This document shows, piece after piece, positions 1 through 16,355 of a stretch of DNA of 64,000 nt. The DNA comes from Arenimonas oryziterrae DSM 21050 = YC6267. GTDB lineage: Bacteria; Pseudomonadota; Gammaproteobacteria; Xanthomonadales; Xanthomonadaceae. The translations under genes and the position numbers were made by a program. The notes under the pieces were generated by a model. It saw only the letters and a program-made list of their open reading frames with translations. It had not been told where the DNA came from and searched no databases. The stretch covers positions 62,001 through 126,000 of the forward strand of contig NZ_ATVD01000004.1 of assembly GCF_000420545.1 (NCBI RefSeq), in the 5' to 3' direction. The stretch's first letter is position 1. Each line of letters starts with the position of its first letter.

Positions 1-172
1 CCTGGGCCGCGCGACCGAGCGCCGCGATCTCGGCGGCGACGTGCTGTGCCTCTTCGACGCGGCTGCGGCAATGCACGGCGATGTCATAGCCGTCGCTGGC
101 CAGTCGCAATGCGATCGCCCGGCCGATGCCACGGCTGGCGCCGGTGACGAGAATGCGGGAGCTGGGATTCAT
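1..172 (-). CDS. 3-oxoacyl-ACP reductase (SDR family), partial
   Basis: The first 57 residues are visible; the rest lies outside the left edge of the window. They open a Rossmann fold with the SDR cofactor motif TGASRGIG at about residues 10-17. This is the FabG-type ketoreductase, which reduces the beta-keto group on an acyl carrier protein with NADPH. The ATG (170-172) overlaps the stop of the upstream dehydratase gene as ATGA, so translation is probably coupled. In aryl-polyene clusters a ketoreductase of this kind (ApeQ in E. coli) works with the neighbouring ketosynthase and dehydratase. A general fatty-acid FabG is the alternative, but the position inside the operon favours the pigment role. 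Confidence 0.85.
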   Translation of the reverse strand, partial: MNPSSRILVTGASRGIGRAIALRLASDGYDIAVHCRSRVEEAQHVAAEIAALGRAAQ

Positions 173-627
173 GGGGCGTGGCCCTCCAGGAAGGCGCCGG
201 GATTGCGGGGTTCGAACACGGAGACGTTGGCTTTCGCGATTTCTTCGGCGCCGTCGAGAATGCGACAGGAAAACATGCCGACACCGTTGTCGCCGAAGAT
301 TTCGCGATGCGCTTCGATGCGCAGGGTCGTGCCGAACGCGAAGTGGGGACGCGTGCATTCATAGCGGCGCGTGCCGAGCAGGAAACCGAGGGTCACACTT
401 TCGCCGCGTTGCAGGGCTTCGTGTCCGGCCCAGGCGGCAATGGCCTGGGCCATGTATTCGATGCCGACCCAGGCCGGGACGCCGAGGTCGTCGGCGAACA
501 GATGATCGCTGCGCACGTCGGCCTCGACGACAACGTTGTCCGCGTCGCAGGACAGCAGGCGATCGACAAACAGCATCGCACCACGGTGCGGCACGACCTG
601 CTCGATGCGCAGAAGCGGCGCGGTCAT
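169..627 (-). CDS. hotdog-fold 3-hydroxyacyl-ACP dehydratase of the aryl polyene cluster
   Basis: The product has 152 residues and a single hotdog domain. It begins with a VPHR segment typical of FabA/FabZ-like dehydratases, and a long hotdog helix with the stretch IEYMAQAIAAW lies near residues 56-66. The likely reaction is dehydration of 3-hydroxyacyl-ACP to the trans-2-enoyl form. No enoyl reductase is present in the cluster, so repeated cycles would build a conjugated polyene. It resembles the ApeP-type dehydratases of APE clusters. The ketosynthase gene upstream ends at 628, directly against this ATG (625-627), and the gene overlaps the reductase downstream by 4 bases. Confidence 0.88.
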   Translation of the reverse strand: MTAPLLRIEQVVPHRGAMLFVDRLLSCDADNVVVEADVRSDHLFADDLGVPAWVGIEYMAQAIAAWAGHEALQRGESVTLGFLLGTRRYECTRPHFAFGTTLRIEAHREIFGDNGVGMFSCRILDGAEEIAKANVSVFEPRNPGAFLEGHAP

Positions 628-1812
628 TCAATCGGCTCCCAGTACGAGAGCGGCATTGCTGCCGCCGAACGCGAAGCTCTGGCTGAGCACGTGGCGCGGT
701 CGGCGCGGCGCGTGCTCGCCCGGTCGCACCAGATGCACGGGCGGCAACGCCGGGTCCGTCTCGCCATCCCACCAATGCGGCGGCAAGAGCCCGCGGGGAT
801 TGTTCACGAGCGTGAGCCAGCTGATCGCCGCCTCGATCGCGCCCGCCGCGCCGAGGGTATGCCCGGTCAGCGGTTTGGTCGAACTGGCGGGTGTCGACGG
901 ACCCCACAGACGGGCGATCACCTGGCTCTCCATCGCATCGTTGTGCGGGGTCGCCGTGCCATGCAGATTAATGTAGTCGATGGCCTCGGCCGACAGACCG
1001 GCGCGCCGCAGGGACTGCGCGATCGCCTCCGTCGCGCCCTGCCCGCTCGGGTCGGGCGCCGACATGTGGTGGGCGTCGGCACTTTCGCCCCAGCCGGCCA
1101 GGCGTACGGCGCCTTCCTCGCGGGTCATCAGGAACAGGGCCGCGCCCTCGCCGATGTTGATGCCGCGGCGATGGACCGAAAACGGATTGCAGCGCGTCGG
1201 CGACACCGACTCCAGCGCGCTGAAGCCAGCGATGGTGAATGCGCACAACGAATCGGCGCCGCCGGCAATCACGGCATCGGCCATGCCGGCCTGGAGCAGG
1301 CGCGCACCCGAGGCCAGGGCCTTGGCGCTGGACGAACACGCCGTGGAAATCACGTGCGCCGGACCGGTCGCACCGAAGTGCTGCGCGAGAAACTGCGCCG
1401 GCGTGCCCATCTCCTGCTGCGCATAGTGGAATTGCGTTGGCCAGTGGCCGTGCTCGCGGTAATGGCGTTGCGCGCGTTCGCTTTCGCCGACGCCGGAGGT
1501 GCTCGTGCCGAGCACGATCGCGACCCGGTGTGCGCCGAATTTCGCAATCGCCTGCTCGACGGCGGCACGGATTTCCTGCGCGGCGAGCGCCAGCAAGGAA
1601 TTGTTGCGTCCTTGCAGCGCGACGGGCATCGAATCGAGATTGGGCAATGCCTCATGCACGACGCCCAGCGCCAGCGATCGGCCGGGTGTGAATGCCTCCG
1701 TCGCAGAAACGCCACGCGGGGCATCATCGGCGAACAAGGCGGCCGTGACAGCATTGCGGCCATGGCCGAGCGCGCAAACCAGGCCAAGATCGTTGAGGAA
1801 GACCCGACTCAC
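628..1812 (-). CDS. beta-ketoacyl-ACP synthase (FabF-like) of the aryl polyene cluster
   Basis: This 394-residue condensing enzyme of the KAS I/II type has the full catalytic triad: Cys159 in TACSSSAKAL, a His in the HGTATP motif (about residue 295) and a His in GHTLGAAG (about 328). It would elongate the acyl-ACP intermediate with malonyl-ACP. It probably pairs with the Cys-less ketosynthase-like protein at the head of the operon, as known for ApeO/ApeC. The start is GTG (1810-1812), overlapping the stop of the DUF3261 gene as GTGA; no better ATG lies near the conserved N-terminus. The dehydratase gene begins immediately after its stop. Confidence 0.92.
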   Translation of the reverse strand: MSRVFLNDLGLVCALGHGRNAVTAALFADDAPRGVSATEAFTPGRSLALGVVHEALPNLDSMPVALQGRNNSLLALAAQEIRAAVEQAIAKFGAHRVAIVLGTSTSGVGESERAQRHYREHGHWPTQFHYAQQEMGTPAQFLAQHFGATGPAHVISTACSSSAKALASGARLLQAGMADAVIAGGADSLCAFTIAGFSALESVSPTRCNPFSVHRRGINIGEGAALFLMTREEGAVRLAGWGESADAHHMSAPDPSGQGATEAIAQSLRRAGLSAEAIDYINLHGTATPHNDAMESQVIARLWGPSTPASSTKPLTGHTLGAAGAIEAAISWLTLVNNPRGLLPPHWWDGETDPALPPVHLVRPGEHAPRRPRHVLSQSFAFGGSNAALVLGAD

Positions 1813-2369
1813 GGCGACGGCTCCGACAGCGGCACCGACACGATGACCAGACGATAGCCGTCGCGATGCTGGGTGATTTCGATGCGATCAGGCGCCGTCA
1901 TGCGAACTTCCGTCACCACGGTCGTGTCCTGCAGCAATTGCCGCACGCCCTCGGTCTCGCGCAGCGTCCAGCCGGCGGGCAAGGCGGCGCGAATCTCCGC
2001 GACGGGCCAATACGCCAGTTGCAAATCACTGAGCACGCGCTCGGCCTGCAAGGCCGATGGCACCCAGTCGGCGCGAGTTTGTTCGAGGCGCTCGCCATCC
2101 CAATGCAGGCGCAGGGCCGACTGGCCCATCGCCTGGATCGCGAGTCGCACGTCCTGCGCATCGGCCTCGAGCAAGGCATCAAGCGCCTGCTCCTGCTTTC
2201 CGAAACGGAATTCCAGATGCTGTTGCAAGGCCAGCTCGCGACCCAAAGCGGCCGGCGACAGGTGCAACAGCGGGGCTGCGTCGCCCGGCGCACGCGCAGG
2301 AGCGACCGGCGCCGTCGCGCAGGCGCTCGCCAGCGCCGCCAAGAACAGGGCGGCGATCAGCCGGCGCAC
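1809..2369 (-). CDS. DUF3261 outer-membrane-type lipoprotein
   Basis: The 186-residue product has a short lipoprotein signal peptide ending in the lipobox LASAC (Cys17), so it should be lipid-anchored in the periplasm or outer membrane. The rest matches the small DUF3261 family known mainly from aryl polyene clusters, where it is thought to help place the pigment in the outer membrane; its biochemistry is unknown. The GTG start (2367-2369) is supported by a strong upstream ribosome site, GGAGGAACT just before it. The gene overlaps the preceding oxidoreductase gene by 13 bases and the next ketosynthase gene by 3. Confidence 0.85.
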   Translation of the reverse strand: MRRLIAALFLAALASACATAPVAPARAPGDAAPLLHLSPAALGRELALQQHLEFRFGKQEQALDALLEADAQDVRLAIQAMGQSALRLHWDGERLEQTRADWVPSALQAERVLSDLQLAYWPVAEIRAALPAGWTLRETEGVRQLLQDTTVVTEVRMTAPDRIEITQHRDGYRLVIVSVPLSEPSP

Positions 2370-3589
2370 AGTTCCTCCAGCACTCCGAGGCGACGCTTGG
2401 ATTCGGCGACGTAGGGATTGCTCTTGTCCCAGGCATAGCCGGCGAGGATCGCACTGATCATCTCGCGCACTTCCGTCGAGGCGTTTTCGAAGAAGATGAT
2501 CTTCTGGAAGCTGCCGGCATACCAGGCTTCGACGAAAGCGCGGAAGGTGTCGACACCGTCGCGCAGGGGCCGGCCGTAGTCGGCCTCCCAGTCGATTCGC
2601 TCACCGGCAAACTGGCGCTGCAGACAGGCCGTCGCCAGGCTTGCGGACTTGAACGCGATGGTCACGCCTGAGGAAAACACCGGATCGAGGAACTCGCCGG
2701 CATTGCCCAGCAGCGCGTAGTTCTTTCCCCACAGGGATTTGACGTTGGCGGCATAGCCGATGATCTGACGCGCGGGCGTATCCCAGGTCGCATTCGCCAA
2801 CAGTTTCGACAGACCAGGGTCCTCGCCGACGATCGCCTTGAGACGCGTGGTTTCATCGCCCTCGTACTGCGCCAGGAATTCCGTGCGCGCGACGACGCCC
2901 AGCGAGCAGCGGCCATTGGAGAACGGAATCGTCCAGTACCAGACATCCTGATGTTCGGGATGCACGGTCACCAGGATCTTGTTGCGGTCGAAACTGCCGC
3001 CCAGCGGCATGCCGTCCTCGACGTGGGTGAAGATCGCGCCGCGCGCCGGGAAGTTGGACGGCGTCTCGAGTTTCAGCAAGCGCGGCAGAATGCGTCCGAA
3101 GCCGCTGGCGTCGAGCAGGAACTGCGCATCGACGCGATACTCCTCGCCTTCCGGGCTGCGCGCGATGACGTGCGGTGTCTCGCCGTCGATGTCGATCGCG
3201 ATGACCTCGTGTTTGAAACGCAGCTCGGCACCGGCGCGCTCGGCCGCCTTGGCGAGCACGTGGTCGAAGGTCGCGCGCTGCACCTGGTACGTGGTGCCCC
3301 AGCCCTTGGAAAACTTCTGGCGGAAATCGAACTCGGTGCGCTTGTCGCCGCAGGCGAAGGCCGCGCCGTTCTTGTACTGGAAGCCGGCCTCGACGACATC
3401 GCGCAGCATGCCGGCGGCCTCGATGTACTCCATGCTCTGCGGCAGCAGGCTTTCGCCAATGGAGAAGCGCGGAAACTGCTCCTTCTCCAGCATCAGCACC
3501 TGTCGCCCCTGCTGTCGCAGCATGCCCGCTGCCACCGACCCGGCCGGACCGGCACCGATGATGAGGATTTCCGTTTTCTCAGTGCGCAT
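2357..3589 (-). CDS. flavin-dependent halogenase-like FAD oxidoreductase
   Basis: The 410-residue flavoprotein has a dinucleotide motif IIGAGPAGSVAAG at residues 10-22. The segment PRFSIGESLLP (40-50) and the motif WYWTIP (217-222) fit the WxWxIP signature of flavin-dependent halogenases. Xanthomonadins are brominated aryl polyenes, so halogenation of the aryl head group is a reasonable role. Related family members in other APE clusters are annotated only as tryptophan halogenase-like or geranylgeranyl-reductase-like, so a hydroxylase or reductase remains possible. The ATG at 3587-3589 lies 2 bases after the exporter gene and puts the FAD motif at the usual distance. The longer reading frame upstream is only read-through over that gene. 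Confidence 0.82.
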   Translation of the reverse strand: MRTEKTEILIIGAGPAGSVAAGMLRQQGRQVLMLEKEQFPRFSIGESLLPQSMEYIEAAGMLRDVVEAGFQYKNGAAFACGDKRTEFDFRQKFSKGWGTTYQVQRATFDHVLAKAAERAGAELRFKHEVIAIDIDGETPHVIARSPEGEEYRVDAQFLLDASGFGRILPRLLKLETPSNFPARGAIFTHVEDGMPLGGSFDRNKILVTVHPEHQDVWYWTIPFSNGRCSLGVVARTEFLAQYEGDETTRLKAIVGEDPGLSKLLANATWDTPARQIIGYAANVKSLWGKNYALLGNAGEFLDPVFSSGVTIAFKSASLATACLQRQFAGERIDWEADYGRPLRDGVDTFRAFVEAWYAGSFQKIIFFENASTEVREMISAILAGYAWDKSNPYVAESKRRLGVLEELCAG

Positions 3590-3591
3590 GC

Positions 3592-5958
3592 TCAGTCTCT
3601 TGCAGGAATGTCGAAGGATGTCTGGCCGACCGGTTCGATGATCGGACGAAAACACGGGGACAACAGCCAAACGAGACCGACGCCGAACAGCATCGTCAGT
3701 CCGAACACGTGCAGGGCCGGCGTCGCCGACAAGGCGAGCAGACCGAAGGCGAGCAAGGTGCTGCCCGCGCCCAGGCAGACCGCGAGCCAGCTCGCCCCGT
3801 CGCCGCGATGCTCGACGAGGAAGATGCCGTAGTCCACGCCCATGCCCAACAGGAGCAACAAGGCCAGCACGCTGAATAACTGGAAGGGCTCGCCCAGCCA
3901 GCCCAGCGCCGCGACACTGAGCACGATCGCGATCAAGGTCGGCACCAAGGCCCGCCAGGCTTGCTCGCGATAGCGCAGATACAGGGCCAGCGCGATCGCG
4001 ACGACACCGGCCAACAGCAGCCAGGCCATCATCGCGCGGTAGTGGGACAGCAGTAGCGAAATCTCGCCGGTGCGATCGACCCAGGTCACGCCGGAGAGGC
4101 CGCCCGCCTGCGCTTTGAGCAAGGCCAGATCCGAGGTCGGGCCCACGCCCTGCAGCATCAGCACACTCGCCCAGCGCCCTTCGTGTTCGCCGAGCCACCG
4201 CGCGCGGAAAGCTTCCGCGACCGGCTGTTTCAGCCAATCTTCGATGCGCAGGGCCGAGGCGGCGAACACGGGGCGGACGAGTTCTTCGCCGGTCGCCTGC
4301 GAGACACGCGCGAGCACCTGGGCTTCGCGTTGCGCCGTCAGAGCGGCATCGGCGCGCTGACGGGCCTGCGAAGGCACCCAATCGGAAATCGCGCTGTAGC
4401 CGCCGAGCTTTCCATCGGCGAGCAGGAGATCGAGACGGGCCTTCAACAACTCTTCGCGGGCGAGCACCTGATCGGCGCTCGTGCCGCTGACCAGATAGAA
4501 CTGCGCGGGGCTGGGCAAGCCAAGCAATCCGCCGATCTCGCGTTGCTGCGCGATGAGTTCGGCCGGCGAGTTCTGCAAGGCGCGCAGATCGTCGCGTACC
4601 TGCAATCGCTGCAGGCCGGTCACGGAAAACAGGAGCAGTGCGATGGCGACGATCCAGGCGAGCGGATGATCCGAACGCCAGCGCGGCCAGCCCGCCAGGG
4701 AATCGGCGATGCGATTGCCGAAGCGACTGATCGGACGCGGGCCGCGATCGAGCCAGGGGAACCAGCAAGCCACCGTCGCAAACGCGACCACCAACCCACT
4801 GGCGGAAAACACGGCCATCTGGCGCAAGCCAGGGAATGGTGCCAGCCCGAGCGCGAGATACGCCAGCACGCTGGTCGCCAACGCGAGCACCAGACCGGGC
4901 AGCAGCAGGCGCATGAGCCCGTGCGAAGACAGATCGCCATGACCCTGACGACAAGCGAAGTAATGGATGCCGTAGTCCTCGGCCACGCCGACCAGACTCG
5001 CGCCGAATACCAGGGTCAGAAGATGGATCTTGCCGAAGATCAGCACGGTCACGGCGACGCCGCCGGCGCAACCGATCAGCAAGGACAGCGCCACCAGCGC
5101 GACCGGACGCAGGCCGCGAAATGCCAGCCACATCAGGGCGATCACCGCGAGCAGCGATCCCCAGCCGATCGTGTTCATCTCCCAGCTCGCGCGCACCGCC
5201 GCGGCTTCCGCATGCAGGGGAACACCGGCGCGCAGCACGCGGATCGTCGGCGACGTCGCGCGCGCCGCGTCGGTCGCAGTGTCGAGCGCCGTTTTCAGCC
5301 GCGCCTGACCGTCGAGGTGGAACGCCGAGCTCGCGACGTCGTAGCGCAGGATCGCCCAGTCACTGCCGTCCTTGGACACACTGGCGATCCCATCGCGCAG
5401 GCCGATGCCCTGCCCCAGCCTGGCCTGCCACCACGACGTCCACAGGCCCAGCGGATCGGCGCGCCATTCGGTGAGGCCACCGCCCATCGCCGGACCATAC
5501 AGGCTGGCAAGTGCGGTATCGCCGAGTTCGACGGGATCGGCCGCGCGCAGTTGCGTGCGTTGCGATGCGGTCAGCAGGCGGTCGCGATAGGGACGGTAGA
5601 AATCGATCGCCGCCGAGGCGGCGAGTTCGTCGCTCGCGGGCATCGACAGGGTCGGCGATGCTTTTAGGGTTTCGGTAAACGTTTGCGTCGCCTGGCGCAC
5701 GGAAGCCCAGTCGCTTCCGCCGACGAGAACCACGATCTGGCGGGTGGCGCCGTCGACGATGCCGCGCTCGGCGAGTGCAAGCAACGGGTCGCGTTCTTCG
5801 CCCGGCAGCAGGGCCAGGACGTCGCTGTCGATCTTCGGCGAGCGCCAGAAGCCGATCTGCTGCACCACGAGCGCCAGCACCAGGGCCAGCCACAGCCACG
5901 CGGCCCAGCGCCAGACCTGGCGCAGACGCAGTTCCGTGGGAGCGAGCGGCTCAGTCAA
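3592..5958 (-). CDS. MMPL/RND-family exporter of the aryl polyene cluster
   Basis: This 788-residue inner-membrane protein has the layout of an MMPL half-transporter: one N-terminal helix, a large periplasmic loop, a block of about five helices (about 265-400), another helix and loop, and a second five-helix block at the C-terminus. The family is proton-driven and exports lipids. Next to LolA-like and DUF3261 proteins it most likely moves the polyene lipid out of the inner membrane. The start appears to be TTG (5956-5958), overlapping the LolA-like gene by 8 bases; no ATG lies close enough to the first helix. A Gly/Asp-rich transmembrane stretch (MGVDYGIFLVEH) is typical of the family. Confidence 0.88.
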   Translation of the reverse strand: MTEPLAPTELRLRQVWRWAAWLWLALVLALVVQQIGFWRSPKIDSDVLALLPGEERDPLLALAERGIVDGATRQIVVLVGGSDWASVRQATQTFTETLKASPTLSMPASDELAASAAIDFYRPYRDRLLTASQRTQLRAADPVELGDTALASLYGPAMGGGLTEWRADPLGLWTSWWQARLGQGIGLRDGIASVSKDGSDWAILRYDVASSAFHLDGQARLKTALDTATDAARATSPTIRVLRAGVPLHAEAAAVRASWEMNTIGWGSLLAVIALMWLAFRGLRPVALVALSLLIGCAGGVAVTVLIFGKIHLLTLVFGASLVGVAEDYGIHYFACRQGHGDLSSHGLMRLLLPGLVLALATSVLAYLALGLAPFPGLRQMAVFSASGLVVAFATVACWFPWLDRGPRPISRFGNRIADSLAGWPRWRSDHPLAWIVAIALLLFSVTGLQRLQVRDDLRALQNSPAELIAQQREIGGLLGLPSPAQFYLVSGTSADQVLAREELLKARLDLLLADGKLGGYSAISDWVPSQARQRADAALTAQREAQVLARVSQATGEELVRPVFAASALRIEDWLKQPVAEAFRARWLGEHEGRWASVLMLQGVGPTSDLALLKAQAGGLSGVTWVDRTGEISLLLSHYRAMMAWLLLAGVVAIALALYLRYREQAWRALVPTLIAIVLSVAALGWLGEPFQLFSVLALLLLLGMGVDYGIFLVEHRGDGASWLAVCLGAGSTLLAFGLLALSATPALHVFGLTMLFGVGLVWLLSPCFRPIIEPVGQTSFDIPARD

Positions 5959-6580
5959 ACTGTCGGGCCTCGCGCGGGTCGAGCACGCCCGGTGTCTCGC
6001 GCAGATTCAGGAAACGGATCGTCGTACGGTCGCCGCTGACTTCCTCCAGCTGCACCCGGCGCACTTGCCGGTTGCCCTGCAGTTCGATGCGGCGAAAGAC
6101 TTTCTGCAAGCCGCCCGGCTTGGGCACGAGCTCCAGAGTCCAGGCGCCCTCGGGCAACAGGGTTTCCTTGAGCACGAACTGCTGCGACAAGGCACTGACA
6201 TTGCCGCCCAGCAAGGCCATCAGCAGTGCGTTCGCGGTGCGCACGGCCGGCGAATCACCCTTCGCGAGCAGATCGCGGCGACTGCCGTCGGCCTGCCGCG
6301 TGCTCAGGCGCTCGCGCGTGAGCACGATCGAAGACGCGAACGGACTGCGTGTGTTCCAGACGACGCCGCGCTTGCGGGCGAGCAGGAAGTCGCCTTTCGA
6401 CAGCAGCGGATGGCGGAAACCCTGCAGGCTCTTTTCCTGCTCGAACTCGCCGCGCAGGACCGGCGTATCGGACAGGCGTTGCTTCACGCCCAGGCCCGGC
6501 TCGGCGCTGCGAGCCGCGGAGGCGCCCAGGCTCGCCGTGACCAGCAATACGATCGACAAAATCCGGAGCATCCCACTCAT
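5951..6580 (-). CDS. LolA-like outer-membrane lipoprotein carrier protein
   Basis: The 209-residue product has an N-terminal signal peptide (hydrophobic core ILSIVLLVTASLGASAA) followed by a LolA-like open-barrel domain, so it is predicted to be periplasmic. Copies inside aryl-polyene operons are distinct from the housekeeping LolA and are believed to carry the pigment across the periplasm. The ATG at 6578-6580 was chosen because it starts right at the signal peptide and overlaps the thioesterase stop as ATGA. The longer upstream frame is Arg-rich read-through. The gene runs 8 bases into the exporter gene, which is its likely functional partner. Confidence 0.86.
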   Translation of the reverse strand: MSGMLRILSIVLLVTASLGASAARSAEPGLGVKQRLSDTPVLRGEFEQEKSLQGFRHPLLSKGDFLLARKRGVVWNTRSPFASSIVLTRERLSTRQADGSRRDLLAKGDSPAVRTANALLMALLGGNVSALSQQFVLKETLLPEGAWTLELVPKPGGLQKVFRRIELQGNRQVRRVQLEEVSGDRTTIRFLNLRETPGVLDPREARQFD

Positions 6581-6996
6581 GCGCCGGTCACTCCGAGCCG
6601 TTCCAGCAAGATCGGCGGCGAGACGAAACTCATCTCGCCGGTGGCCACGCTGACCGCGACCTGGATCGTGTGGCCACGAGTCAGGACCTGGCCGGTCCCG
6701 GCATCGCGGATCTGGTAGTCGATCTTCAGCCGGTTCTCCCACTCGACGATCTGCGCGCGCACGATGAGCCGCTGCTGAAAATGCGCCGGGCGCACGTACT
6801 TCGAACGCAAGTCAACGATCGGCCAGACATAGCCCGATTCGCGCATCTGCAGATAGTCGAAATTGAAGCGCTGCAGCAAGGCGCAGCGCGCGAGCTCGAA
6901 ATATTTCAGATAGTGGCCGTGCCAGACCACGACCATCGGATCGAGGTCGTGGAAGGCCGGGCTCAGTTCGATCTCGTGGCTCAGATCAGCGCGCAT
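6577..6996 (-). CDS. acyl-CoA thioesterase, 4-hydroxybenzoyl-CoA thioesterase family
   Basis: The 139-residue hotdog protein has the family motif DLDPMVVVWHGHYLKYFE near residues 18-35, with the Asp-x-Met-x-x-x-x-H arrangement seen in YbgC/4HBT thioesterases. It would hydrolyse an acyl thioester, either proof-reading the carrier proteins or releasing an aryl-acyl product. Thioesterases of this kind recur in aryl polyene clusters. The ATG (6994-6996) lies within the 3' end of the ammonia-lyase gene (11-base overlap), and the stop overlaps the LolA-like gene. The exact substrate cannot be read from the sequence. Confidence 0.87.
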   Translation of the reverse strand: MRADLSHEIELSPAFHDLDPMVVVWHGHYLKYFELARCALLQRFNFDYLQMRESGYVWPIVDLRSKYVRPAHFQQRLIVRAQIVEWENRLKIDYQIRDAGTGQVLTRGHTIQVAVSVATGEMSFVSPPILLERLGVTGA

Positions 6997-8539
6997 ACAG
7001 ACTCCAGGCTTCGCCGCGGATGGCGTTGACCAGGCCGAGCAATTCGCGGTCGAGCGCGCGATCTTCCTCGATCAGCGGCACGCGCACTTCCAGGTCGGCC
7101 ATCATGCTGGCGAGTTCGTCGCCGATCGACAGGTCCGGCTGCACGCGTTGACGCAGGGCGATGCCTTGACGCGCGGTCACCAGCAAGGCCGCAGCGACCT
7201 GTTCGGTCAGCTCGAGCACGCGCAGGCAGTCGCGAGCGGCGATCGTGCCCATGCTGACCTTGTCCTGGTTGTGGCATTCGGTCGAGCGCGAGAACACCGA
7301 CGCCGGCATCGTCAGCTTCAGTGCCTCGGCGGTCCAGGCCGATACGCTGATCTGCAGGGCCTTGAGACCATGATTGATCGCGGCCCGTGGACCCGTCGCC
7401 GCGGACAGGTTTGCCGGCAGCCCGTGGTTGTAGCGTGCGTCCACGAGCAGGGCCATCTGCCGGTCCATGAGATCGGCGAGATTCGCGACCAGATTCTTCA
7501 TCGAATCCATCGCGAACGCGATATGCCCGCCATAGAAATGACCGCCGTGCAGCACCAGTTCCTGGTCCGGGTCGATGATGGGATTGTCGTTGGCGCTGTT
7601 GAGCTCGTTCTCGATGGTGTCGCGGAAGAACGGCAAGGCATCTTCGAGCACGCCGATGACATGCGGTGCGCAGCGCAGGGAATAGCGGTCCTGCAGGCGC
7701 TGGTCGTTGCGCGTCGGCCGCTCGCAATGCAGGTCCTCGCGCAGGCGTGCGGCGATGCGCTGCTGACCGGCGTGCGGCTTCACCGCGAACAAGGCCTCGT
7801 CGAAATGATGGGCATTGCCCGCGCTGGCCAACACGTTGAATGCGGTCAGGCGCGTGCACAGGCGCGACAGATAGTCGGCGCGCTGCCAGGCCAGGCAGGC
7901 CAGTGCCGTCATCACGGCGGTGCCGTTCATGATCGCGAGACCTTCCTTCGGCCGCAGTTGCAGCGGGGTCAGCTGGTGGCGCGCCAACGCCTCGGTCGCG
8001 GCCAGCGTTTCGCCGCCCAGGCTGACCTCGCGTTCGCCGCACAGCACAGCGGCGACGTAGGACAGCGGCGTCAGATCGCCACTCGCGCCGACCGAGCCTT
8101 CGGCCGGGATGCGCGGCAGGATGTCGTGACGCAACAGGGCTTCCAGCTGCTCCAGCAGGCACAGGCTCACGCCCGACATCCCCTGCGCGAGCGAGGCCAG
8201 GCGTGTCGCGAGTACGGCGCGGGTTTCGTCGGCATCGAGAAAACGACCCAGGCCGCAGCCGTGATAGGTGTAGAGGTGGTGCGGCAGTTCCGCGATCAGC
8301 GCCGGCGGAATGTTCACCGTGCAGGAATCGCCGTAACCGGTACTGATGCCGTAGACCACGCCATCTTCGGCAATAAGCCGGTCGACGAAATCGGCGCCGC
8401 GCTGGATGCGCGCGCGGAACGCCGGATCGGCATTCAGACGCGGCTCGCCGCGGCGTTGTGCGAGCGCGACGACATCCTCGATGCGCAGGCGATCGCTGCC
8501 GAAGATCACCGGAGTCCTGTCAGCGGGGGGCGTGTGCAT
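6986..8539 (-). CDS. MIO-type aromatic amino acid/histidine ammonia-lyase
   Basis: The 517-residue enzyme has the self-cyclising Ala-Ser-Gly triad (152-154, in GSVGASGDLTPLS) that forms the MIO cofactor, and a likely catalytic Tyr63 in VYGISTGYG. It removes ammonia from His, Phe or Tyr to give an arylacrylate. Here that could supply cinnamate-, coumarate- or urocanate-type starter acids to the adenylating ligase nearby. The selectivity loop reads Y92-H93 before the GxG turn; aligned by eye, tyrosine lyases have HL, phenylalanine lyases FL and histidine lyases SH, so the substrate is unclear. A catabolic hutH role is unlikely because no hutU, hutI or hutG genes are near. Confidence 0.9.
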   Translation of the reverse strand: MHTPPADRTPVIFGSDRLRIEDVVALAQRRGEPRLNADPAFRARIQRGADFVDRLIAEDGVVYGISTGYGDSCTVNIPPALIAELPHHLYTYHGCGLGRFLDADETRAVLATRLASLAQGMSGVSLCLLEQLEALLRHDILPRIPAEGSVGASGDLTPLSYVAAVLCGEREVSLGGETLAATEALARHQLTPLQLRPKEGLAIMNGTAVMTALACLAWQRADYLSRLCTRLTAFNVLASAGNAHHFDEALFAVKPHAGQQRIAARLREDLHCERPTRNDQRLQDRYSLRCAPHVIGVLEDALPFFRDTIENELNSANDNPIIDPDQELVLHGGHFYGGHIAFAMDSMKNLVANLADLMDRQMALLVDARYNHGLPANLSAATGPRAAINHGLKALQISVSAWTAEALKLTMPASVFSRSTECHNQDKVSMGTIAARDCLRVLELTEQVAAALLVTARQGIALRQRVQPDLSIGDELASMMADLEVRVPLIEEDRALDRELLGLVNAIRGEAWSLYAR

Positions 8540-9461
8540 GAGTCGTTTGGTCCCAGAAGGGGAAAAAATTGAACCAGTCGTAGGGCGAGAGACGCAATCG
8601 TCCCTCCATCCAGCGGGCGAATTCGCCGGCGTAGGCCGTCAGCGCCTGCTCGCGTGTGCCTCGCGGCAGACGCACCTGTTCGGCGAGCAGGCTGACTTCG
8701 ACCTGGTAGCCCTCGCCATGATGCAGGCAACCGATCAGATACGCCGGGCATTGCAACAAAGAAGCCAGCAGGTAGGGGCCGATGGGTAGCGGCGCCGAAT
8801 GCCCGAGGAAAGGCACCTGCACTACGCGGTCGCCCTGCACCGGCACGCGGTCGCCGGCGATCGCGATGAATTCGCCCGCGGCCACCCGGTCGGCCAGCAT
8901 CATCACCGTCACCGCAGAAAAATCCGTGACCTGCATCAGGCTCACGCGCGAGTCGGGATTGAGCCGATGCAGTAGGCGATTGAAGCGCTGCGCATGCGCG
9001 GTGTGCACAAGGATGGTCACGCGCAGACCCTCGCGATGCACGGCCGCCGTCTGCAGCAATTCCAGGCAGCCCATATGCGCCGTGATCATCACCCCGCCCT
9101 GCCCCCGGCCGATTGCCGCGAGCACCGCTTCGTGGCCGTGGAATTCCAGACGCTCGCGTCGATAGCGGCCGCTCATCGCCAGCGCCTTGTCGAGCAGGGT
9201 TTCGGCGAAGCAGATGAAGTGCCGGAAGCTGTGGCGCAGGCCCGGCGCCCGCTCGAATACCTGGTGGCTCGCCTGCAGTCGCTCCAGATATTCGCGTGAG
9301 GCGCGACGCGCCATCGGCCGCGTCAGCCAGTAGTAGAAGACCACCGGATACAGGCACAGCCGGAACGGCGTGCGCCCGAACCAGCGATACACGCCGTACA
9401 AAAACCAGATGCCGGCGACAAAGGTGCTCTCGCCCACGCTGGCCCAGTGCCGGCCGCTCAT
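8520..9461 (-). CDS. LpxL/HtrB-like lysophospholipid acyltransferase
   Basis: The 313-residue inner-membrane enzyme belongs to the lipid A late acyltransferase family. It has an N-terminal hydrophobic anchor (FVAGIWFLYGVYRWFG) and the catalytic HxxxxE motif as HMGCLE near residue 117. In aryl polyene clusters such enzymes are proposed to transfer the polyene or a fatty acid to a lipid anchor rather than to lipid A. The ATG at 9459-9461 overlaps the glycosyltransferase stop as ATGA and places the anchor right at the N-terminus. The long upstream extension of the frame is read-through over the glycosyltransferase gene. The 3' end overlaps the ammonia-lyase gene by 20 bases. Confidence 0.87.
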   Translation of the reverse strand: MSGRHWASVGESTFVAGIWFLYGVYRWFGRTPFRLCLYPVVFYYWLTRPMARRASREYLERLQASHQVFERAPGLRHSFRHFICFAETLLDKALAMSGRYRRERLEFHGHEAVLAAIGRGQGGVMITAHMGCLELLQTAAVHREGLRVTILVHTAHAQRFNRLLHRLNPDSRVSLMQVTDFSAVTVMMLADRVAAGEFIAIAGDRVPVQGDRVVQVPFLGHSAPLPIGPYLLASLLQCPAYLIGCLHHGEGYQVEVSLLAEQVRLPRGTREQALTAYAGEFARWMEGRLRLSPYDWFNFFPFWDQTTHAHAPR

Positions 9462-10228
9462 GCGCCGGTCGCCTTGCGCCACAGCAGGCGCGGCGACCGC
9501 CACAACATGCCGAAGAACAGTTTCGCGTGCATGCGCGAGATGCGCACGTTGTCGCGCCAGACATCGAAATGCGACACCCCGTCCAGCGGATAGGTGACGC
9601 GCGTCGGACGGTTGCGCACGCGTACGCCGCGCCAATGCAGACGCACCAGAATCTCGCAGTCGAAATCCATGCGCCGGCCGATCGCCACCGAATCGATGAG
9701 CGCGATGACCGGCGCGAGCGGGTAGACGCGGAATCCGCACATGGAATCACGGATGTCGAAGGACAGCGTATTGATCCAGATCCAGATATGCGTGGCGTAG
9801 CGGCCGTACAGCCGCCCCTTCGGCACCGAGGCGTCGTAGATCGGGCAGCCGCAGACAATCGCCGCCGGATGCGCCCGCGCTTCGGCGAGAAAACCACCGA
9901 TGTCAGCCGGATCGTGCTGGCCGTCGGCGTCGATCTGCAGGACATGCGTGTAGCCGCGCCGCGCGGCTTCGCGGAAACCGGCCATGACGGCGCCGCCCTT
10001 GCCCTGGTTTTCCGTCAGGCGAACCAGGAACACCTCGCCCGGATGCGCTGTGGCCAGCGCGTCCAGTGCGCGCGCGCAGCCGGCTTCAGAACCATCGTCG
10101 ACGAGAACGCAGGCGATGTTCTGGGCGCGTACGCCCGCGACCATGATGCCGATCGCGTGTTCGTGGTTGTAGACCGGGATCACCACGACCGGCCGGAAAT
10201 CGGGATCACCCACGGACGGCGAGCTCAC
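9458..10228 (-). CDS. family 2 glycosyltransferase
   Basis: The 256-residue GT-A fold protein has VVVIPVYNHE at the N-terminus, the donor-binding segment LVDDGS and the metal motif DADGQHD. It should transfer a sugar from a nucleotide- or polyprenyl-phosphate donor, probably to the lipid or aryl end of the pigment. The GTG start (10226-10228) overlaps the ligase stop as GTGA and places the first beta strand 12 residues in, as in related proteins. No transmembrane helix is evident apart from a hydrophobic C-terminal patch, so it is likely cytosolic or peripheral. Confidence 0.87.
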   Translation of the reverse strand: MSSPSVGDPDFRPVVVIPVYNHEHAIGIMVAGVRAQNIACVLVDDGSEAGCARALDALATAHPGEVFLVRLTENQGKGGAVMAGFREAARRGYTHVLQIDADGQHDPADIGGFLAEARAHPAAIVCGCPIYDASVPKGRLYGRYATHIWIWINTLSFDIRDSMCGFRVYPLAPVIALIDSVAIGRRMDFDCEILVRLHWRGVRVRNRPTRVTYPLDGVSHFDVWRDNVRISRMHAKLFFGMLWRSPRLLWRKATGA

Positions 10229-11937
10229 GGGACAAGCTCTTCGGCCGCGACCGGCAGCGCGGTGAACAACACGCGACCGCTGGCATGCGCGCCCAGCTCG
10301 GAGGTGTAGCGGAACGCCAGCGCACCGTGGTTCTCCTGCCAATCCAATTGCAGGTTCAGTCGCGTTCCCGGACGCACCAGCAACTGGAACTTCAACACAT
10401 CCATGCGCGCGAACTGGCGCTGCAACGCAAACGCCTCGCGGCCGAGCCGGATCGCCCAGTCGAGCAAAGCCACGCCCGGCAAGACCGGCGTGATCGGGAA
10501 ATGGCCGTCGAACACGGCGAGCTCGGCGTCGACGTCCAGATTCAGGCTGACAGTGTTCGCCGTGCGGCTCTGCCAGTCGGGTCGGGGCAACAGGGGTTTG
10601 AACAACACGGCCAGTCGCGCCTCGGTGACCTTGCCCTGCGTGTCGACCGGCAGGGTCTCGACGAAGCGCCAGCGGCGCGGCAAGGCGATCGCGTCGATGC
10701 TGCCCGCCAGGATGTCGCGCAGTTTCTGCACCAGTACCCGTTTGCCGGCGCTGGCCAGCAGGTCGCGTCCTTCGTGCGTCAGCCGGCAGACGGCGGCGAC
10801 GACCGTGCGTTCGCCCGTCAGCAGCAAGGTCCGCGCCTCGTGTACCAGCGGCGACGCTTGCAGGCCGCGCTCGATCGCCGTCAGCGAAATGCGCCGCTCC
10901 TCGATCTTCACGATGCGATCCGCGCGTCCGACCAGCACGAATCCCTGCTCGACCGCGACCGCGCGATCGGCGCTGACGAACCACTGCGCATCCGGCAGAT
11001 GCGCCGACCGCACGGCCAGCGTCTCGCCGTCGATGCGCCAATCGACGCCGCGCAGCGGCGACCAGGCCTGCGTGCTGCCCTGCCGCGACGCGATGCCGCC
11101 GGTCTCGGTGCTGCCGAACACTTCCACCGGAACGACGCCCCACAATCGGTGCACCGATGCCGAGGCTTCCGGCGGCAAAGGACCGCCCGAGGAAAACACG
11201 GCACGCAAGCCGGGCTTCATCGCGCGCCAATCGATGGTTGTGGACAGACGTTTGAGATGGGCGGGACTGCTGACGAGCACCGAGGGCTGCGCATCGAGCG
11301 TCGCGGCGATCTGTTCGGGATAGGCCAGCCGCTGTGCGGCGAACGGGCGCCCGGCGGCGAGCGGCCACAGCACGCGGAACAGCAAGCCGTAAATGTGTTG
11401 ATGGGAGACCGTGCCGTGGATCGTCGCGCCGTCGATGGCGACGCCGAAACGGCTTTCCAGCGACGCAATCTCGCTGTCGAGCTGATGCAGGCGTTTTTCC
11501 ACGGCGGCCGGCTCGCCACTGGAGCCCGAGGTGTAGATCACCAGGCGCGTGCTGCGCAGATCCAGAGGCCGCAGCACGTCGTCGCCGGCATCGCCGTGCG
11601 CGAAGTCGGGCTGCAAGCCATCGGGCAGGTCGCCAGCGAAGGCATCGACGACGGTGCGCAGCCGCTCCAGTGTGTCGGGCAGGACGTCGCCAGGCAAAGT
11701 GACTATTTTTCCGGCGTGCCAGGCACCGAACAAGGCCGCGGCGAAACTCAGGCTACTTTCGGCATGCAGGGCGACGCGCGTGCCGGCTTCGCGACGGAAG
11801 CGGCATCGCCAGGCCAACACCTGCCGGCGAAACGATTCGAACGGGACGGCGGCGCCGTGTTCGAAGGCGACAATGCGCGCGGCATCCGCAGATGCGTCGC
11901 CGGAGAACAACAAAGGCAGCGCACGCCACTCAGCCAT
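10225..11937 (-). CDS. AMP-dependent acyl/aryl ligase fused to a hotdog dehydratase-like domain
   Basis: This is a 570-residue two-domain protein. Residues 1-440 form an ANL adenylation domain with the P-loop signature YTSGSSGEP at about 135-143. The last roughly 115 residues form a hotdog domain with the FabZ-like motif GHFP...VLPGVALLDWA. In E. coli APE the same functions are separate proteins: ApeH, which loads the aryl acid on the carrier protein, and ApeI, a dehydratase. The fusion suggests one product that activates an aryl acid and dehydrates the growing chain. ATG 11935-11937; overlaps the COG4648 gene by 8 bases and the glycosyltransferase gene by 4. Confidence 0.9.
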   Translation of the reverse strand: MAEWRALPLLFSGDASADAARIVAFEHGAAVPFESFRRQVLAWRCRFRREAGTRVALHAESSLSFAAALFGAWHAGKIVTLPGDVLPDTLERLRTVVDAFAGDLPDGLQPDFAHGDAGDDVLRPLDLRSTRLVIYTSGSSGEPAAVEKRLHQLDSEIASLESRFGVAIDGATIHGTVSHQHIYGLLFRVLWPLAAGRPFAAQRLAYPEQIAATLDAQPSVLVSSPAHLKRLSTTIDWRAMKPGLRAVFSSGGPLPPEASASVHRLWGVVPVEVFGSTETGGIASRQGSTQAWSPLRGVDWRIDGETLAVRSAHLPDAQWFVSADRAVAVEQGFVLVGRADRIVKIEERRISLTAIERGLQASPLVHEARTLLLTGERTVVAAVCRLTHEGRDLLASAGKRVLVQKLRDILAGSIDAIALPRRWRFVETLPVDTQGKVTEARLAVLFKPLLPRPDWQSRTANTVSLNLDVDAELAVFDGHFPITPVLPGVALLDWAIRLGREAFALQRQFARMDVLKFQLLVRPGTRLNLQLDWQENHGALAFRYTSELGAHASGRVLFTALPVAAEELVP

Positions 11938-12478
11938 GCGCCTGCCCCGCTTTCACGCGACGTCGCACCAACCATTCGCCGGCAAACAGCACGCCCATCA
12001 ATACGTACGCCAGAAGCCCGTTGTACAACGCCCACACAGCGTCGGAACACCACAGCGCCGTGATCAGCGCGATGCTGCCATTGAGCACGAAGAACCCACA
12101 CCAGACGATCGTCACCTTGCGCGTATAGACGACGCCTTCCGGCGGAAGATCCGGTTCCTGCAGGCGCGCCAGACGCTCGATGACCGTCGGCGGATGCCGC
12201 AGGCTCACCGCGAACACGACCAGCATCACGGCATTGACGAGCACGGGATAGAGTTTCAGCGGCATCGCGTCGTTGCCCAGCACGCTGAACAACACGAGCA
12301 CGCCGGCACCGGCGGCGGCGGCGAGCCAAAGACGATCGCGGCTGATGACGGCGCGTGCCGTCGCCATCACCAGCAGGAAAATCGCCAACCAGCGCGGCTC
12401 GACATGGCCCAGTCCGAAATAGATCGCGAGCGGATACAGGAGCGTCACCAGCCAGATCAAGGCCGTACGCAAGCGCAT
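11930..12478 (-). CDS. COG4648-type integral membrane protein of APE clusters
   Basis: The 182-residue, very hydrophobic protein has about five predicted membrane helices (for example ALIWLVTLLYPLAIYFGL at the N-terminus). It belongs to the COG4648 family, found almost only in aryl polyene operons and long mis-annotated as a gyrase subunit; it has no similarity to gyrase. Its function is unknown; a role in anchoring or presenting the pigment assembly enzymes at the inner membrane is only inferred. The ATG at 12476-12478 follows the first carrier-protein stop after 2 bases. Confidence 0.82.
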   Translation of the reverse strand: MRLRTALIWLVTLLYPLAIYFGLGHVEPRWLAIFLLVMATARAVISRDRLWLAAAAGAGVLVLFSVLGNDAMPLKLYPVLVNAVMLVVFAVSLRHPPTVIERLARLQEPDLPPEGVVYTRKVTIVWCGFFVLNGSIALITALWCSDAVWALYNGLLAYVLMGVLFAGEWLVRRRVKAGQAHG

Positions 12479-12480
12479 GA

Positions 12481-12750
12481 CTAGCTGCCGGTCGAGGCTT
12501 CGTGTCCCGTCTGCATCATGCCGTGCACGGCATCGACGACGTCCGAGACGGTGCGCACGGACTTGAAGGCTTCGGGCTTGAGGGAACTGCCGATCAATGG
12601 CTTGAGCTGCACGATCAGATCGACCGCGTCGATACTGTCGATGTCCAGGTCCTCCCCCAGCTTCGCGTCGAGACGGATGCGTTCGGCTTCGATCCCGAAC
12701 GTATCGCGCAGGATGGCGGAGATGCGCTGGTAGAGCTGTTCCTTGGTCAT
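12481..12750 (-). CDS. acyl carrier protein, first of two (3' copy)
   Basis: The 89-residue carrier protein has the phosphopantetheine attachment site LDIDSIDAVDL (Ser at about 39). It holds the growing acyl chain as a thioester for the ketosynthase, reductase and dehydratases of the operon. It is clearly different in sequence from the second carrier protein just upstream, matching the paired carriers ApeE/ApeF of E. coli. ATG 12748-12750, 36 bases after the stop of the second carrier gene, one of the few real spacers in the operon. Confidence 0.92.
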   Translation of the reverse strand: MTKEQLYQRISAILRDTFGIEAERIRLDAKLGEDLDIDSIDAVDLIVQLKPLIGSSLKPEAFKSVRTVSDVVDAVHGMMQTGHEASTGS

Positions 12751-12786
12751 GATCGGGTTCTTCTTCTACGAGCCTCGGCGGGCTCT

Positions 12787-13047
12787 TTATTGCTTGCGGT
12801 TGGCGGCCACGAACGCGCACAGCGTCTGCACGCTGGCGAAATGGCGGCGGGTGTCTTCGGAATCGGCGGACAGGGTCACGCCGTAACGCTTTTGCAGGGC
12901 CAGACCCAGTTCCAGCGCGTCGATCGAGTCCAGGCCCAGGCCTTCGTTGAACAAGGGCGCGGCGGCGTCGATGTCGGCGGGCGTGACATCCTCGAGGGAC
13001 ATGGAACTGATGATCAGATCCTTGATTTCTGCTTCAAGCGCTTGCAA
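12787..13047 (-). CDS. acyl carrier protein, second of two (5' copy)
   Basis: The 86-residue phosphopantetheine-binding protein has the attachment motif GLDSIDALEL (Ser at about 40). The start appears to be TTG (13045-13047): it puts the family N-terminus in frame, and a GGAG ribosome site lies 7 bases upstream; the next Met is inside the first helix and would truncate it. The 5' end overlaps the acyltransferase gene by 14 bases. Having two carriers suggests that one is loaded with the aryl starter and the other with malonyl or elongation intermediates, which is inference. Confidence 0.9.
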   Translation of the reverse strand: MQALEAEIKDLIISSMSLEDVTPADIDAAAPLFNEGLGLDSIDALELGLALQKRYGVTLSADSEDTRRHFASVQTLCAFVAANRKQ

Positions 13048-13807
13048 TGGGCCGCTCCAGATCGAAATAGCCGGTCAGGTGTTCGGTCAGCTTCCGTGCC
13101 GCCTGGGCTTCGCTCGTTCCGGCAAGAAACGGGGCCACCGGCATGTCCTCTCGGACCTCAATGGACACATGAAAACGACGTGAAGGCACACGATACCATT
13201 TCTCACCTTTCGACAGGGTCGGCGGGCTGCAACGGATGATCACCGGCGTGATGTCGCGCAGGCCGCGAACAGCGATATTCGCCGCTCCGCGCTGCAGGGT
13301 CGCGGGCCCCGTTCGGGGGGTCCGGGTGCCCTCGGGGAAGATGATGAGATTCTTTCCTGAACGCAGCGAGGCGATGCAGTCCTCGATCAGGCCGGCCCCG
13401 TTGTCGTTGCAGATGTAGCGCGTCGCACGCACCGGCCCGCGGGTGAAAGGATTGGTGGCCAGGCGGGATTTCACGACGCAGTCGGCATTGGGAATCAGCG
13501 AGACCAGGAACACCACGTCGATGAGGGTCGGATGGTTGGCCAGGACCAGCAGGCCCCGACGCTCGAGCCGCTCCGCGCCGCGGATTTCATAGGTTAGGAC
13601 GCCCATGCGGTGCATGAACCCGATGAACAGCGCGAAGCTGCGGTGGATGATCGCCCGCGCCTTCTGGCTGCGGACCTCCAGATCGCGCACCAGCAAGCTC
13701 AGCAGCGGAAACACCAGCAGCCACAGGATCACCCCGCCGATGCCGAAGCTCAGGAAACTCAGGCCGGTGGCGATGACCCGCCAGGCGTAGTTCAGACGCT
13801 CACGCAT
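13034..13807 (-). CDS. 1-acylglycerol-3-phosphate acyltransferase-like (PlsC family)
   Basis: The 257-residue membrane-associated enzyme has the PlsC motifs: NHPTLID (the HxxxxD catalytic box) near residue 82 and FPEGTRT near 155. An N-terminal hydrophobic helix (LSFLSFGIGGVILWLLVFPLLSLL) would anchor it in the inner membrane. It transfers an acyl group to a lysophospholipid-like acceptor; in this operon the acyl group may be the polyene itself. The ATG at 13805-13807 was chosen because it starts just before the anchor helix; the upstream frame is read-through. It overlaps the gene before it by 8 bases. Confidence 0.87.
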   Translation of the reverse strand: MRERLNYAWRVIATGLSFLSFGIGGVILWLLVFPLLSLLVRDLEVRSQKARAIIHRSFALFIGFMHRMGVLTYEIRGAERLERRGLLVLANHPTLIDVVFLVSLIPNADCVVKSRLATNPFTRGPVRATRYICNDNGAGLIEDCIASLRSGKNLIIFPEGTRTPRTGPATLQRGAANIAVRGLRDITPVIIRCSPPTLSKGEKWYRVPSRRFHVSIEVREDMPVAPFLAGTSEAQAARKLTEHLTGYFDLERPIASA

Positions 13808-14537
13808 GCCGTTGCCAGCGCCAGCATCGACCGGACGCATGGAATTCCATCGCCGCGTCGTCCGAAAGCAGGAAACGCAGCACTTCCAGGCCATGCGGCA
13901 GCCCGGTCGGTGCCTGTCCGTCCGCATCCGTGCCGTCGCCGTCGAGGGAAAACCCGGCGTCGCCGGCTTGGGCGGCGGCGATGCGCAAGGCCCAGGCGTA
14001 GTCGGCCGCGGGCTCGTCCGCGTAGGGGGCATAGGCGTCGGGCGGGCATCCGTCGTACATCGCGATCAGCACTTCCTCGGCGCCATCAGAAAGCAGGCCC
14101 AAGGCCTCGATCACGGCGGCTTCCGCGCTCGCCGCCCCCGCTGACACCGCCGAATAATTACCGGTGAGCTTGCGCGCGATGCTGTACTGCGCGGCGATCG
14201 CGTTGTGCGTGGACAGACCGAAATTCGTCGGCGACAGGGCTTCATCGCGCGCCAGTGCGTCGAGCATCTCGTAGGTGCGGCTCAGATCGCCGTGCCGGGA
14301 CGCGAACACCAGCGGAACCGCTGTATCGACCGAGACCTGGCACCAGTAAGCCACCTGCAAGGCCATGCGCCCGAGGTTTTCCACACGTCGCCGCTGCATC
14401 GCCGGCATTTCCGCCAAGGCAGGAGTGTCCTCGCCCTTAGGCAGATGCGGTTGGCGGGCCCAGTCCAGCCAGGCCTGCCGGTCGGTCAGCCCCGGCGCGA
14501 ACGCGTGCCAGTCCTTGAGAAGAAAATGCGGCTTCAT
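13800..14537 (-). CDS. ketosynthase-like chain length factor (Cys-less)
   Basis: The 245-residue protein matches the short beta-ketoacyl synthase N-terminal-like family (PF13723). At the place where condensing enzymes have an active-site Cys it reads AVSAGAASAEA, so no Cys nucleophile is present. The known partner is ApeC, which acts as a chain-length factor with the ketosynthase ApeO; the catalytic partner here would be the KS gene at 628-1812. It is the first gene of the operon. The ATG at 14535-14537 fits the family N-terminus (HFLLKDWHAFAPG) but has no strong ribosome site. The upstream frame runs into the tRNA terminator and is unlikely to be translated. Confidence 0.82.
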   Translation of the reverse strand: MKPHFLLKDWHAFAPGLTDRQAWLDWARQPHLPKGEDTPALAEMPAMQRRRVENLGRMALQVAYWCQVSVDTAVPLVFASRHGDLSRTYEMLDALARDEALSPTNFGLSTHNAIAAQYSIARKLTGNYSAVSAGAASAEAAVIEALGLLSDGAEEVLIAMYDGCPPDAYAPYADEPAADYAWALRIAAAQAGDAGFSLDGDGTDADGQAPTGLPHGLEVLRFLLSDDAAMEFHASGRCWRWQRHA

Positions 14538-14676: not shown

Positions 14677-14752
14677 TGGCGTCCCCACGGGGATTCGAAC
14701 CCCGGTCGCTACCGTGAAAGGGTAATGTCCTAGGCCTCTAGACGATGGGGAC
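14677..14752 (-). tRNA. tRNA-Glu (anticodon TTC)
   Basis: The 76-nt cloverleaf has acceptor GTCCCCA/TGGGGAC, anticodon loop CTTTCAC (TTC), T-loop TTCGAAT and an encoded 3' GCCA. It is very close to enterobacterial tRNA-Glu and is probably co-transcribed with tRNA-Ala 19 bases upstream. Confidence 0.97.
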
Positions 14753-14771
14753 AACGACTGTTTGAAACTAG

Positions 14772-14847
<76 letters not shown>

Positions 14848-15388: not shown

Positions 15389-15446
15389 GGCAGGATGCTA
15401 GCACGCGATTTACGGCGTTCTGCAGCCTGTTTCGGGACTTGCGAAA

Positions 15447-16268: not shown

Positions 16269-16355
16269 GGACAAGGAATGGCTCGGAATGGCGCGGGTCG
16301 CGACGAGGCGATTGTGCCCGGTCTGGCGCGGCCGGCCCACCCGGACAGACTTTGC

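Follow-up and report, generated by a model that had tools for sequence, protein, structure and literature searches.

An Ape-type aryl-polyene operon with a predicted tyrosine-derived starter and a halogenase-like flavoprotein in Arenimonas oryziterrae

We analyzed a 64,000-nt stretch (the window) of the 3.09-Mb draft genome of Arenimonas oryziterrae DSM 21050 (contig C4, positions 62001 to 126000), the first part of which (positions 1 to 14537, minus strand) carries a putative aryl-polyene (APE) operon. An earlier note on this DNA had described a complete operon of seventeen minus-strand genes with almost no spacer. The strand and the tight packing were borne out, adjacent genes being spaced by -20 to +36 bases, and between positions 14537 and 1 we counted 16 whole genes plus a 17th, encoding a ketoreductase, that is cut. 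The operon is thus not complete within the window. In the contiguous genome sequence around it (L001, where a position equals the window position plus 10000), the remainder of the ketoreductase gene severed at window position 1 reaches L001:9441, and genes for a second, FabF-like ketosynthase (L001:8215-9441; NF006587, 718 bits versus a cutoff of 470) and a phosphopantetheinyl transferase (L001:7511-8215) follow, so that the operon extends ∼2.5 kb past the window edge. Based on gene content and order, we propose, with a probability of about 0.8, that this is an Ape-type APE operon with a tyrosine-derived starter, in which a flavoprotein would tailor the ring of the predicted product.

Sixteen of the 19 operon proteins match the ape region of Escherichia coli CFT073 in the same order, with 31 to 66% identity; PMC8253772 describes the APE cluster of that strain as apeA to apeR, and the E. 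coli cluster has been expressed in strain Top10. In the direction of the minus strand, the first gene (13800..14537) encodes an ApeC-like chain-length factor (PF13723, Ketoacyl-synt_2, E = 1.5e-62; 33% identity to E. coli apeC) that lacks the active-site Cys motif, in agreement with the Cys-less ketosynthase partner noted earlier. It is followed by an ApeD-like lysophospholipid acyltransferase (13034..13807; PF01553; 47% identity to E. coli) and by two carrier proteins that both retain the serine of the DSI attachment site, one ApeE-like (12787..13047; PF00550; NF006617 above cutoff) and one ApeF-like (12481..12750; PF00550; NF003757 above cutoff). Next come an ApeG-like membrane protein (11930..12478; COG4648 in the E. 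coli table), which has no Pfam match and shows 56% identity to the coding sequence of E. coli apeG across 116 aa, and a fusion of an acyl/aryl-acyl carrier protein (ACP) synthetase (ApeH) with an ApeI dehydratase (10225..11937; PF00501 and the ApeI-like PF22818). A GT2 glycosyltransferase (9458..10213; PF00535; 55% identity) and an HtrB-like acyltransferase (8520..9461; PF03279; 36% identity) correspond to the first and second parts of E. coli ApeJ, respectively. They precede an aromatic amino acid ammonia-lyase, a predicted tyrosine ammonia-lyase (TAL) (6986..8539; PF00221, E = 1.9e-157), an ApeK-like thioesterase (6577..6996; PF13279/PF03061; 58% identity), an ApeL-like LolA chaperone (5951..6580; PF03548; 31% identity), and an ApeM-like MMPL/RND exporter (3592..5958; 32% identity) for which the NCBIfam HpnN/RND matches fall below cutoff and no Pfam match was found. 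The last genes in the window encode a halogenase-like flavoprotein, the putative tailoring enzyme (2357..3589; PF04820/PF01494), an ApeN-like DUF3261 lipoprotein (1809..2369; PF11659, E = 7e-37) with a lipobox-like LASAC near its N terminus, an ApeO-like ketosynthase for chain elongation (628..1812; NF006618 above cutoff; Cys158 and His motifs), an ApeP-like dehydratase (169..627; PF22817, ApeP-like, E = 9e-20), and the cut ApeQ-like ketoreductase (1..172; whole gene, L001:9441-10172; TIGR01831, FabG2, above cutoff).

Each gene class that the earlier note had named is thereby backed by a Pfam or NCBIfam match or by an E. coli counterpart. A single operon holds the ketosynthase, the chain-length factor, the ketoreductase, two dehydratases, the carriers, and the aryl-ACP synthetase, together with the LolA/MMPL/DUF3261 export set and the acyl- and glycosyltransferases, and both true ketosynthases retain the Cys and two His motifs. 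The proposed function in APE synthesis with outer membrane export is therefore upheld, as a prediction from collinearity with the E. coli ape genes. By homology to the E. coli and Xenorhabdus Ape proteins, the ketosynthase/chain-length factor, ketoreductase, and dehydratases would perform two-carbon extensions leading to a conjugated polyene, which the thioesterase would, together with the acyl- and glycosyltransferases, pass to a membrane lipid before the LolA/MMPL/DUF3261 set carries the product to the outer membrane. The two clusters have the apeC-to-apeR order and the logic of biosynthesis and export in common. Unlike in E. coli CFT073, ApeH and ApeI are fused, ApeJ is split in two, and apeA and apeB are missing: no ApeB methyltransferase was found in L001, and no FlxJ-family match was obtained in the genome at an E value of ≤1e-60. 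Conversely, the ammonia-lyase, the flavoprotein, and the phosphopantetheinyl transferase are additional here and have no match in the E. coli CFT073 ape region. The same layout as in the window occurs on plasmids of Pseudoalteromonas sp. CF6-2 (L164) and Acinetobacter baumannii (L165), where an ammonia-lyase (61% and 56% identical to ours, respectively) follows the acyltransferase and a flavin adenine dinucleotide (FAD)-dependent oxidoreductase (52% and 53% identical to our flavoprotein) precedes DUF3261; in L164, the ligase and the dehydratase are separate genes instead of a fusion.

The earlier note had also called the operon xanthomonadin-type. In common with it, xanthomonadin clusters encode type II polyketide synthase (PKS) chemistry for APEs, and some carry a halogenase gene, according to PMC3691225 and PMC3949708. 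A xanthomonadin region inferred in two genomes of the same family even includes a flavoprotein 32% identical to that of the window. However, this candidate region matches the operon in scattered genes only (26 to 59% identity), and its gene order and most of its genes differ from those of the operon, which match E. coli ape throughout. We rejected membership in the xanthomonadin group on this lack of synteny, and that the cluster makes a xanthomonadin appears highly improbable. One inferred xanthomonadin region (L132) encodes two distinct flavoproteins (4343-5395 and 15164-16312), 27% and 32% identical to that of the window.

We then compared the ammonia-lyase with its relatives. A scan of named genomes with the window's lyase gave at least 587 relatives among 596 candidate stretches, of which the best 80 were kept. 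The motif GSVGASGDLTPLSY, containing the ASG of the 4-methylideneimidazole-5-one (MIO) cofactor, was found in 80 of 81 lyase sequences. The positions of two further motifs, which govern substrate selectivity, were assigned where we take them to fall in the sequence. At the second of them, all 81 sequences read HNQDKVSM, versus ANQEDHVSM in five of six reference lyases, these five being taken as histidases rather than scored as such; the sixth (L170), located 1.5 kb from a photoactive yellow protein (PYP) gene in genome G058, reads NNQDVVTM. Motif 2 of the window's lyase is thus of the NQD type seen in TAL and phenylalanine ammonia-lyase (PAL), as opposed to the QED type of histidases. In addition, a Methylibium metagenome-assembled genome (MAG) encodes a 71%-identical lyase beside two PYP-family open reading frames (ORFs) and a 4-coumarate ligase (L078, 499-4505), with the PYP gene and the TIGR02372 ligase both above cutoff, and in a FastTree phylogeny this lyase groups among those of APE operons. 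A further hutH-like gene is present in the A. oryziterrae genome, where the match falls into two segments of a single open frame. Owing to motif 2, to the PYP neighborhood in L078, and to this separate hutH-like gene, we rejected a histidase identity, and the "histidine" ammonia-lyase is best read, from its sequence and setting, as a protein that works like a TAL.

Several observations weigh against this assignment. The lyase scores under every NCBIfam cutoff shown, with histidase models giving the top scores, and the support for the APE-lyase group that contains L078 is only 0.46. Furthermore, motif 1, the first selectivity site, is Tyr-His, versus His-Leu in the PYP-linked L170 and Ser-His in the histidase-like references. 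The two selectivity motifs of ammonia-lyases are described in PMC3992019, which also reports that FlxA, a proven TAL of flexirubin biosynthesis, combines a histidase-like motif 1 with a TAL/PAL-like motif 2. We limit our claim to TAL-like function because motif 1 is not His-Leu, with FlxA deviating there as well.

Two known systems offer precedents for such a lyase. In the flexirubin cluster of Chitinophaga pinensis, a TAL and a coumarate ligase likewise start an aryl polyene (PMC3992019), so that flexirubin is a known case of a polyene supplied by a TAL; that cluster differs from ours in its dialkylresorcinol gene, which the window operon lacks. In PYP operons, TAL and 4-coumarate ligase genes occur together, as around the 71%-identical lyase of L078, and PMC12826048 reports demonstrated TAL and p-coumarate ligase (pCL) activities for the pyp operon of Halorhodospira halophila. 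The TAL assignment would thus link pigment and photoreceptor chemistry, given that a very similar lyase adjoins PYP genes, and L078 looks as if an APE-type lyase had been reused to make a photoreceptor chromophore. In A. oryziterrae itself, a link to a light receptor was discarded, as no PYP match was obtained in this genome; across the order, 1 of 299 genomes had a PYP match above cutoff and 13 more had weak matches below it. The lyase occurs in other settings, too. In Xanthomonas bonasiae (L065, 8476-19020), a 74%-identical lyase lies by an AMP-ligase, a carrier-like ORF, and a ketosynthase-like ORF of 1843 aa, apparently a different PKS-type cluster in which this lyase has been reused, and the fetched stretches of Massilia aurea (L111, 9920-11524) and of a Burkholderiaceae MAG (L093, 8827-10425) hold the lyase without APE neighbors.

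According to the pathway that we propose, the lyase would convert tyrosine into 4-coumarate, and the synthetase half of the ApeH-ApeI fusion, by analogy with ApeH, would load it onto a carrier protein. The best NCBIfam match of the fusion is TIGR02372, the 4-coumarate-CoA ligase family, with 91 bits and under the cutoff of 334.7. By pathway logic, the 4-coumaroyl thioester predicted as the lyase/ligase product is also the product of the first extension from 4-hydroxybenzoate. Hence, the lyase alone implies no new skeleton; by joining the APE cycle a step after the point at which 4-hydroxybenzoate enters, a coumaroyl starter may leave the skeleton unchanged. What could alter the product is the halogenase-like gene. 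The same overlap lends some weight to a plainer explanation, in which the operon makes an E. coli-like product from 4-hydroxybenzoate, the lyase only provides side starters (cinnamate or coumarate), and the flavoprotein serves in repair or reduction of the polyene, not in decoration of the ring. The use of 4-hydroxybenzoic acid (4-HBA) by Xenorhabdus ApeH, given in PMC8253772, and a match of the flavoprotein to the geranylgeranyl reductase family TIGR02032 (116 bits, below the cutoff of 158.8) would be in line with it. Nevertheless, no UbiC-type chorismate lyase was found in the genome (XanB2-type enzymes were not searched for), and the nearest characterized folds of the flavoprotein are halogenases; we regard this plain version as improbable.

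The flavoprotein is halogenase-like in its sequence and in its predicted fold. Its Pfam match to PF04820 is above cutoff, and the nearest solved chain by sequence is 3nix, a flavoprotein from Cytophaga hutchinsonii (342 bits), followed by CndH, ChlB4, Mpy16 (5buk), FasV (8zop), Bmp2 (5bul, 5bva), CmlS, RadH, and PltA, from 165 down to 100 bits. The predicted model (mean predicted local distance difference test [pLDDT] of 88.8) gave a comparable list by fold, in the order 3nix, Mpy16, RadH, ChlB4, PltA, FasV, CndH, and Bmp2. A conserved Lys and a WxWxIP motif are marks of flavin-dependent halogenases. In an alignment of 70 flavoproteins, including one encoded in the inferred xanthomonadin region, Lys73 is present in all and WxWxIP in 69, with S replacing P in L113. 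C. hutchinsonii, which we take to be a flexirubin producer, may use 3nix as a flexirubin tailoring enzyme, and chlorinated flexirubins exist in which Cl replaces the ring methyl group.

Some results speak against a halogenase function: 3nix, the closest solved relative, carries no stated function; the best NCBIfam match, CmlS, reaches 138 bits, far under the cutoff of 900; and p-hydroxybenzoate hydroxylases do appear in the fold list, first at rank 23. The last point places ring hydroxylases within the same structural family, and the flavoprotein might instead be such an enzyme, in which case the aryl head would be of the catechol type rather than methylated. That version would accommodate the exclusion pattern described below, which fits any ring modification. 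Yet solved chains named halogenases score 49 to 165 bits with the flavoprotein, versus ∼40 bits for p-hydroxybenzoate hydroxylases, and the near-invariant Lys and WxWxIP align with those of halogenases. A hydroxylase thus seems unlikely, if a serious contender, and we favor a halogenase, although less surely than the more general proposal that the flavoprotein modifies the aryl ring, carrier bound or later.

To place the operon among its relatives, we used the named loci, in which gene presence and order were scored by tblastn match inside the fetched stretches, so that a tailoring gene elsewhere in a genome would escape. Sixty-eight of the best 80 lyase relatives span the region from the chain-length factor to the second ketosynthase. 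The other 12 comprise 8 with contig-end cuts (L033, L047, L054, L076, L081, L097, L105, and L110) and 4 whose lyase lies in a different context (L065, L078, L093, and L111). Since the loci were chosen as best lyase matches, the presence of the lyase in 68/68 is a selection effect, and the sample is biased toward close relatives. The matched genes stand in the same order in all 68 loci, which indicates an order conserved beyond chance. Every core gene is present in 66 of them; by tblastn, the ApeG-like gene went unmatched in L032 and L109, as did the thioesterase in L109. The spanning loci occur in Gamma- and Betaproteobacteria and in Myxococcota, with hosts that, by record title, include Stenotrophomonas, Pseudoxanthomonas, Massilia, Duganella, Paucibacter, Myxococcus, and Archangium. 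The gene mix is not unusual, and this operon is also present in annotated entries of public databases. At ≥56% identity over most of its length, the lyase was found in 39 of 299 genomes of the order (our own included) and, as two contig-end pieces, in one more (G052); within the genus, it is present in 6 of 8 genomes. Judged by its sequence, the operon is well preserved and would belong to a widespread kind for a yellow, membrane-bound APE, the synthesis of which appears to start from tyrosine.

We next examined the tailoring genes of these 68 loci. A flavoprotein gene is present in 48, a gene for an ApeB/FlxJ-like methyltransferase in 15 (not found in 53), neither in 5, and both in none. Among environmental relatives, Duganella has the flavoprotein and Janthinobacterium the methyltransferase. 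The slot between the exporter and DUF3261 is occupied by the flavoprotein in 48 loci, by the methyltransferase in 8, and by neither in 12, and in 7 of the latter the methyltransferase lies between the ligase and the glycosyltransferase. The methyltransferase shares 40 to 48% identity with E. coli ApeB and is matched best by the family model of FlxJ, the methyltransferase of the flexirubin cluster. On a quick tree of 69 rows, the window included, flavoprotein presence changes 11 times, with 10 changes forced by starred branches. Among 10 independent pairs differing in the flavoprotein, the methyltransferase differs in the opposite direction in 5 to 6 and in the same direction in none (sign test, median P of 0.03, range of 0.03 to 0.06).

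The contig-end loci excluded above contain a flavoprotein match (L097 and L110), a methyltransferase (L076), or a methyltransferase fragment (L105). We also sampled 370 genomes of the class (cutoffs: E ≤ 1e-90 for the flavoprotein, E ≤ 1e-120 for the lyase, and E ≤ 1e-60 for the methyltransferase); this test of exclusion is weaker than that in the 68 loci, and its flanks were short. The flavoprotein was found in 17 genomes, the lyase in 14, and the methyltransferase in 15 (1 over the family cutoff), and the two tailoring genes occurred together in a single genome (G442), on different contigs. In 8/17 genomes, the lyase is no more than 5 kb away from the flavoprotein; in the remaining 9/17, no lyase match was present at that distance (contig ends were not checked), and consequently the flavoprotein seems not to be tied to the starter. 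No other APE gene was seen at two class-wide flavoprotein loci (L144 and L148), and of the 15 methyltransferase loci, 4 had no APE-gene match and 3 more had a ketoreductase match only.

Because the halogenase-like gene and the methyltransferase gene replace each other in relatives, we predict two alternative decorations of the pigment. In the simplest reading of these sequence patterns, the aryl ring may be the target of both enzymes, perhaps at the same position, and the flavoprotein would fill the role of the ApeB/FlxJ-type methyltransferase of other APE operons. Against this stand the scores of the two methyltransferases tested against the FlxJ model (432 and 506 bits), under the cutoff of 560, and the 4 to 5 of 10 pairs in which the methyltransferase does not change with the flavoprotein. 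Given opposite changes in 5 to 6 pairs and no difference in 4 to 5, replacement is frequent and not obligatory. We tentatively put forward, at somewhat less than even odds, a broader generalization, namely, that APE operons hold an exchangeable ring-tailoring module, either an ApeB/FlxJ-type methyltransferase or a halogenase-like flavoprotein but not both, which have been swapped repeatedly in evolution, in many cases within one gene slot. On this view, the outer membrane aryl polyenes of A. oryziterrae and of many Stenotrophomonas, Pseudoxanthomonas, Duganella, and myxobacteria would have halogenated or hydroxylated aryl heads, versus methylated ones in E. coli. If the two genes do encode alternative decorators of one ring, genome sequence would be enough to tell the head group of the pigment, and halogenated or hydroxylated membrane pigments would be expected from a large number of bacteria. 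That the two tailoring genes exclude each other is, in our view, the new and most useful result of this work. Among the titles and abstract openings listed in our literature searches, none concerned an ammonia-lyase as part of an APE cluster or this exclusion, which key APE papers may nonetheless touch on.

Finally, we looked at the surroundings of the operon. In a tree of three proteins, its closest named relatives are from an Arenimonas MAG and a Lysobacterales MAG. The operon has a GC content of 0.66, versus 0.65 for the remaining window, so composition does not signal a recent import. A promoter/terminator scan gave no terminator, its only matches being two overlapping promoter-like ones beyond the tRNA-Ala gene. 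Immediately upstream, and likewise on the minus strand, are genes for tRNA-Glu and tRNA-Ala (window 14677-14847). Beyond them are matches to DUF1249, a phosphoenolpyruvate (PEP)-synthase regulatory protein, and PEP synthase, which recur at the locus of an Arenimonas MAG (L038) and at six Pseudoxanthomonas loci.

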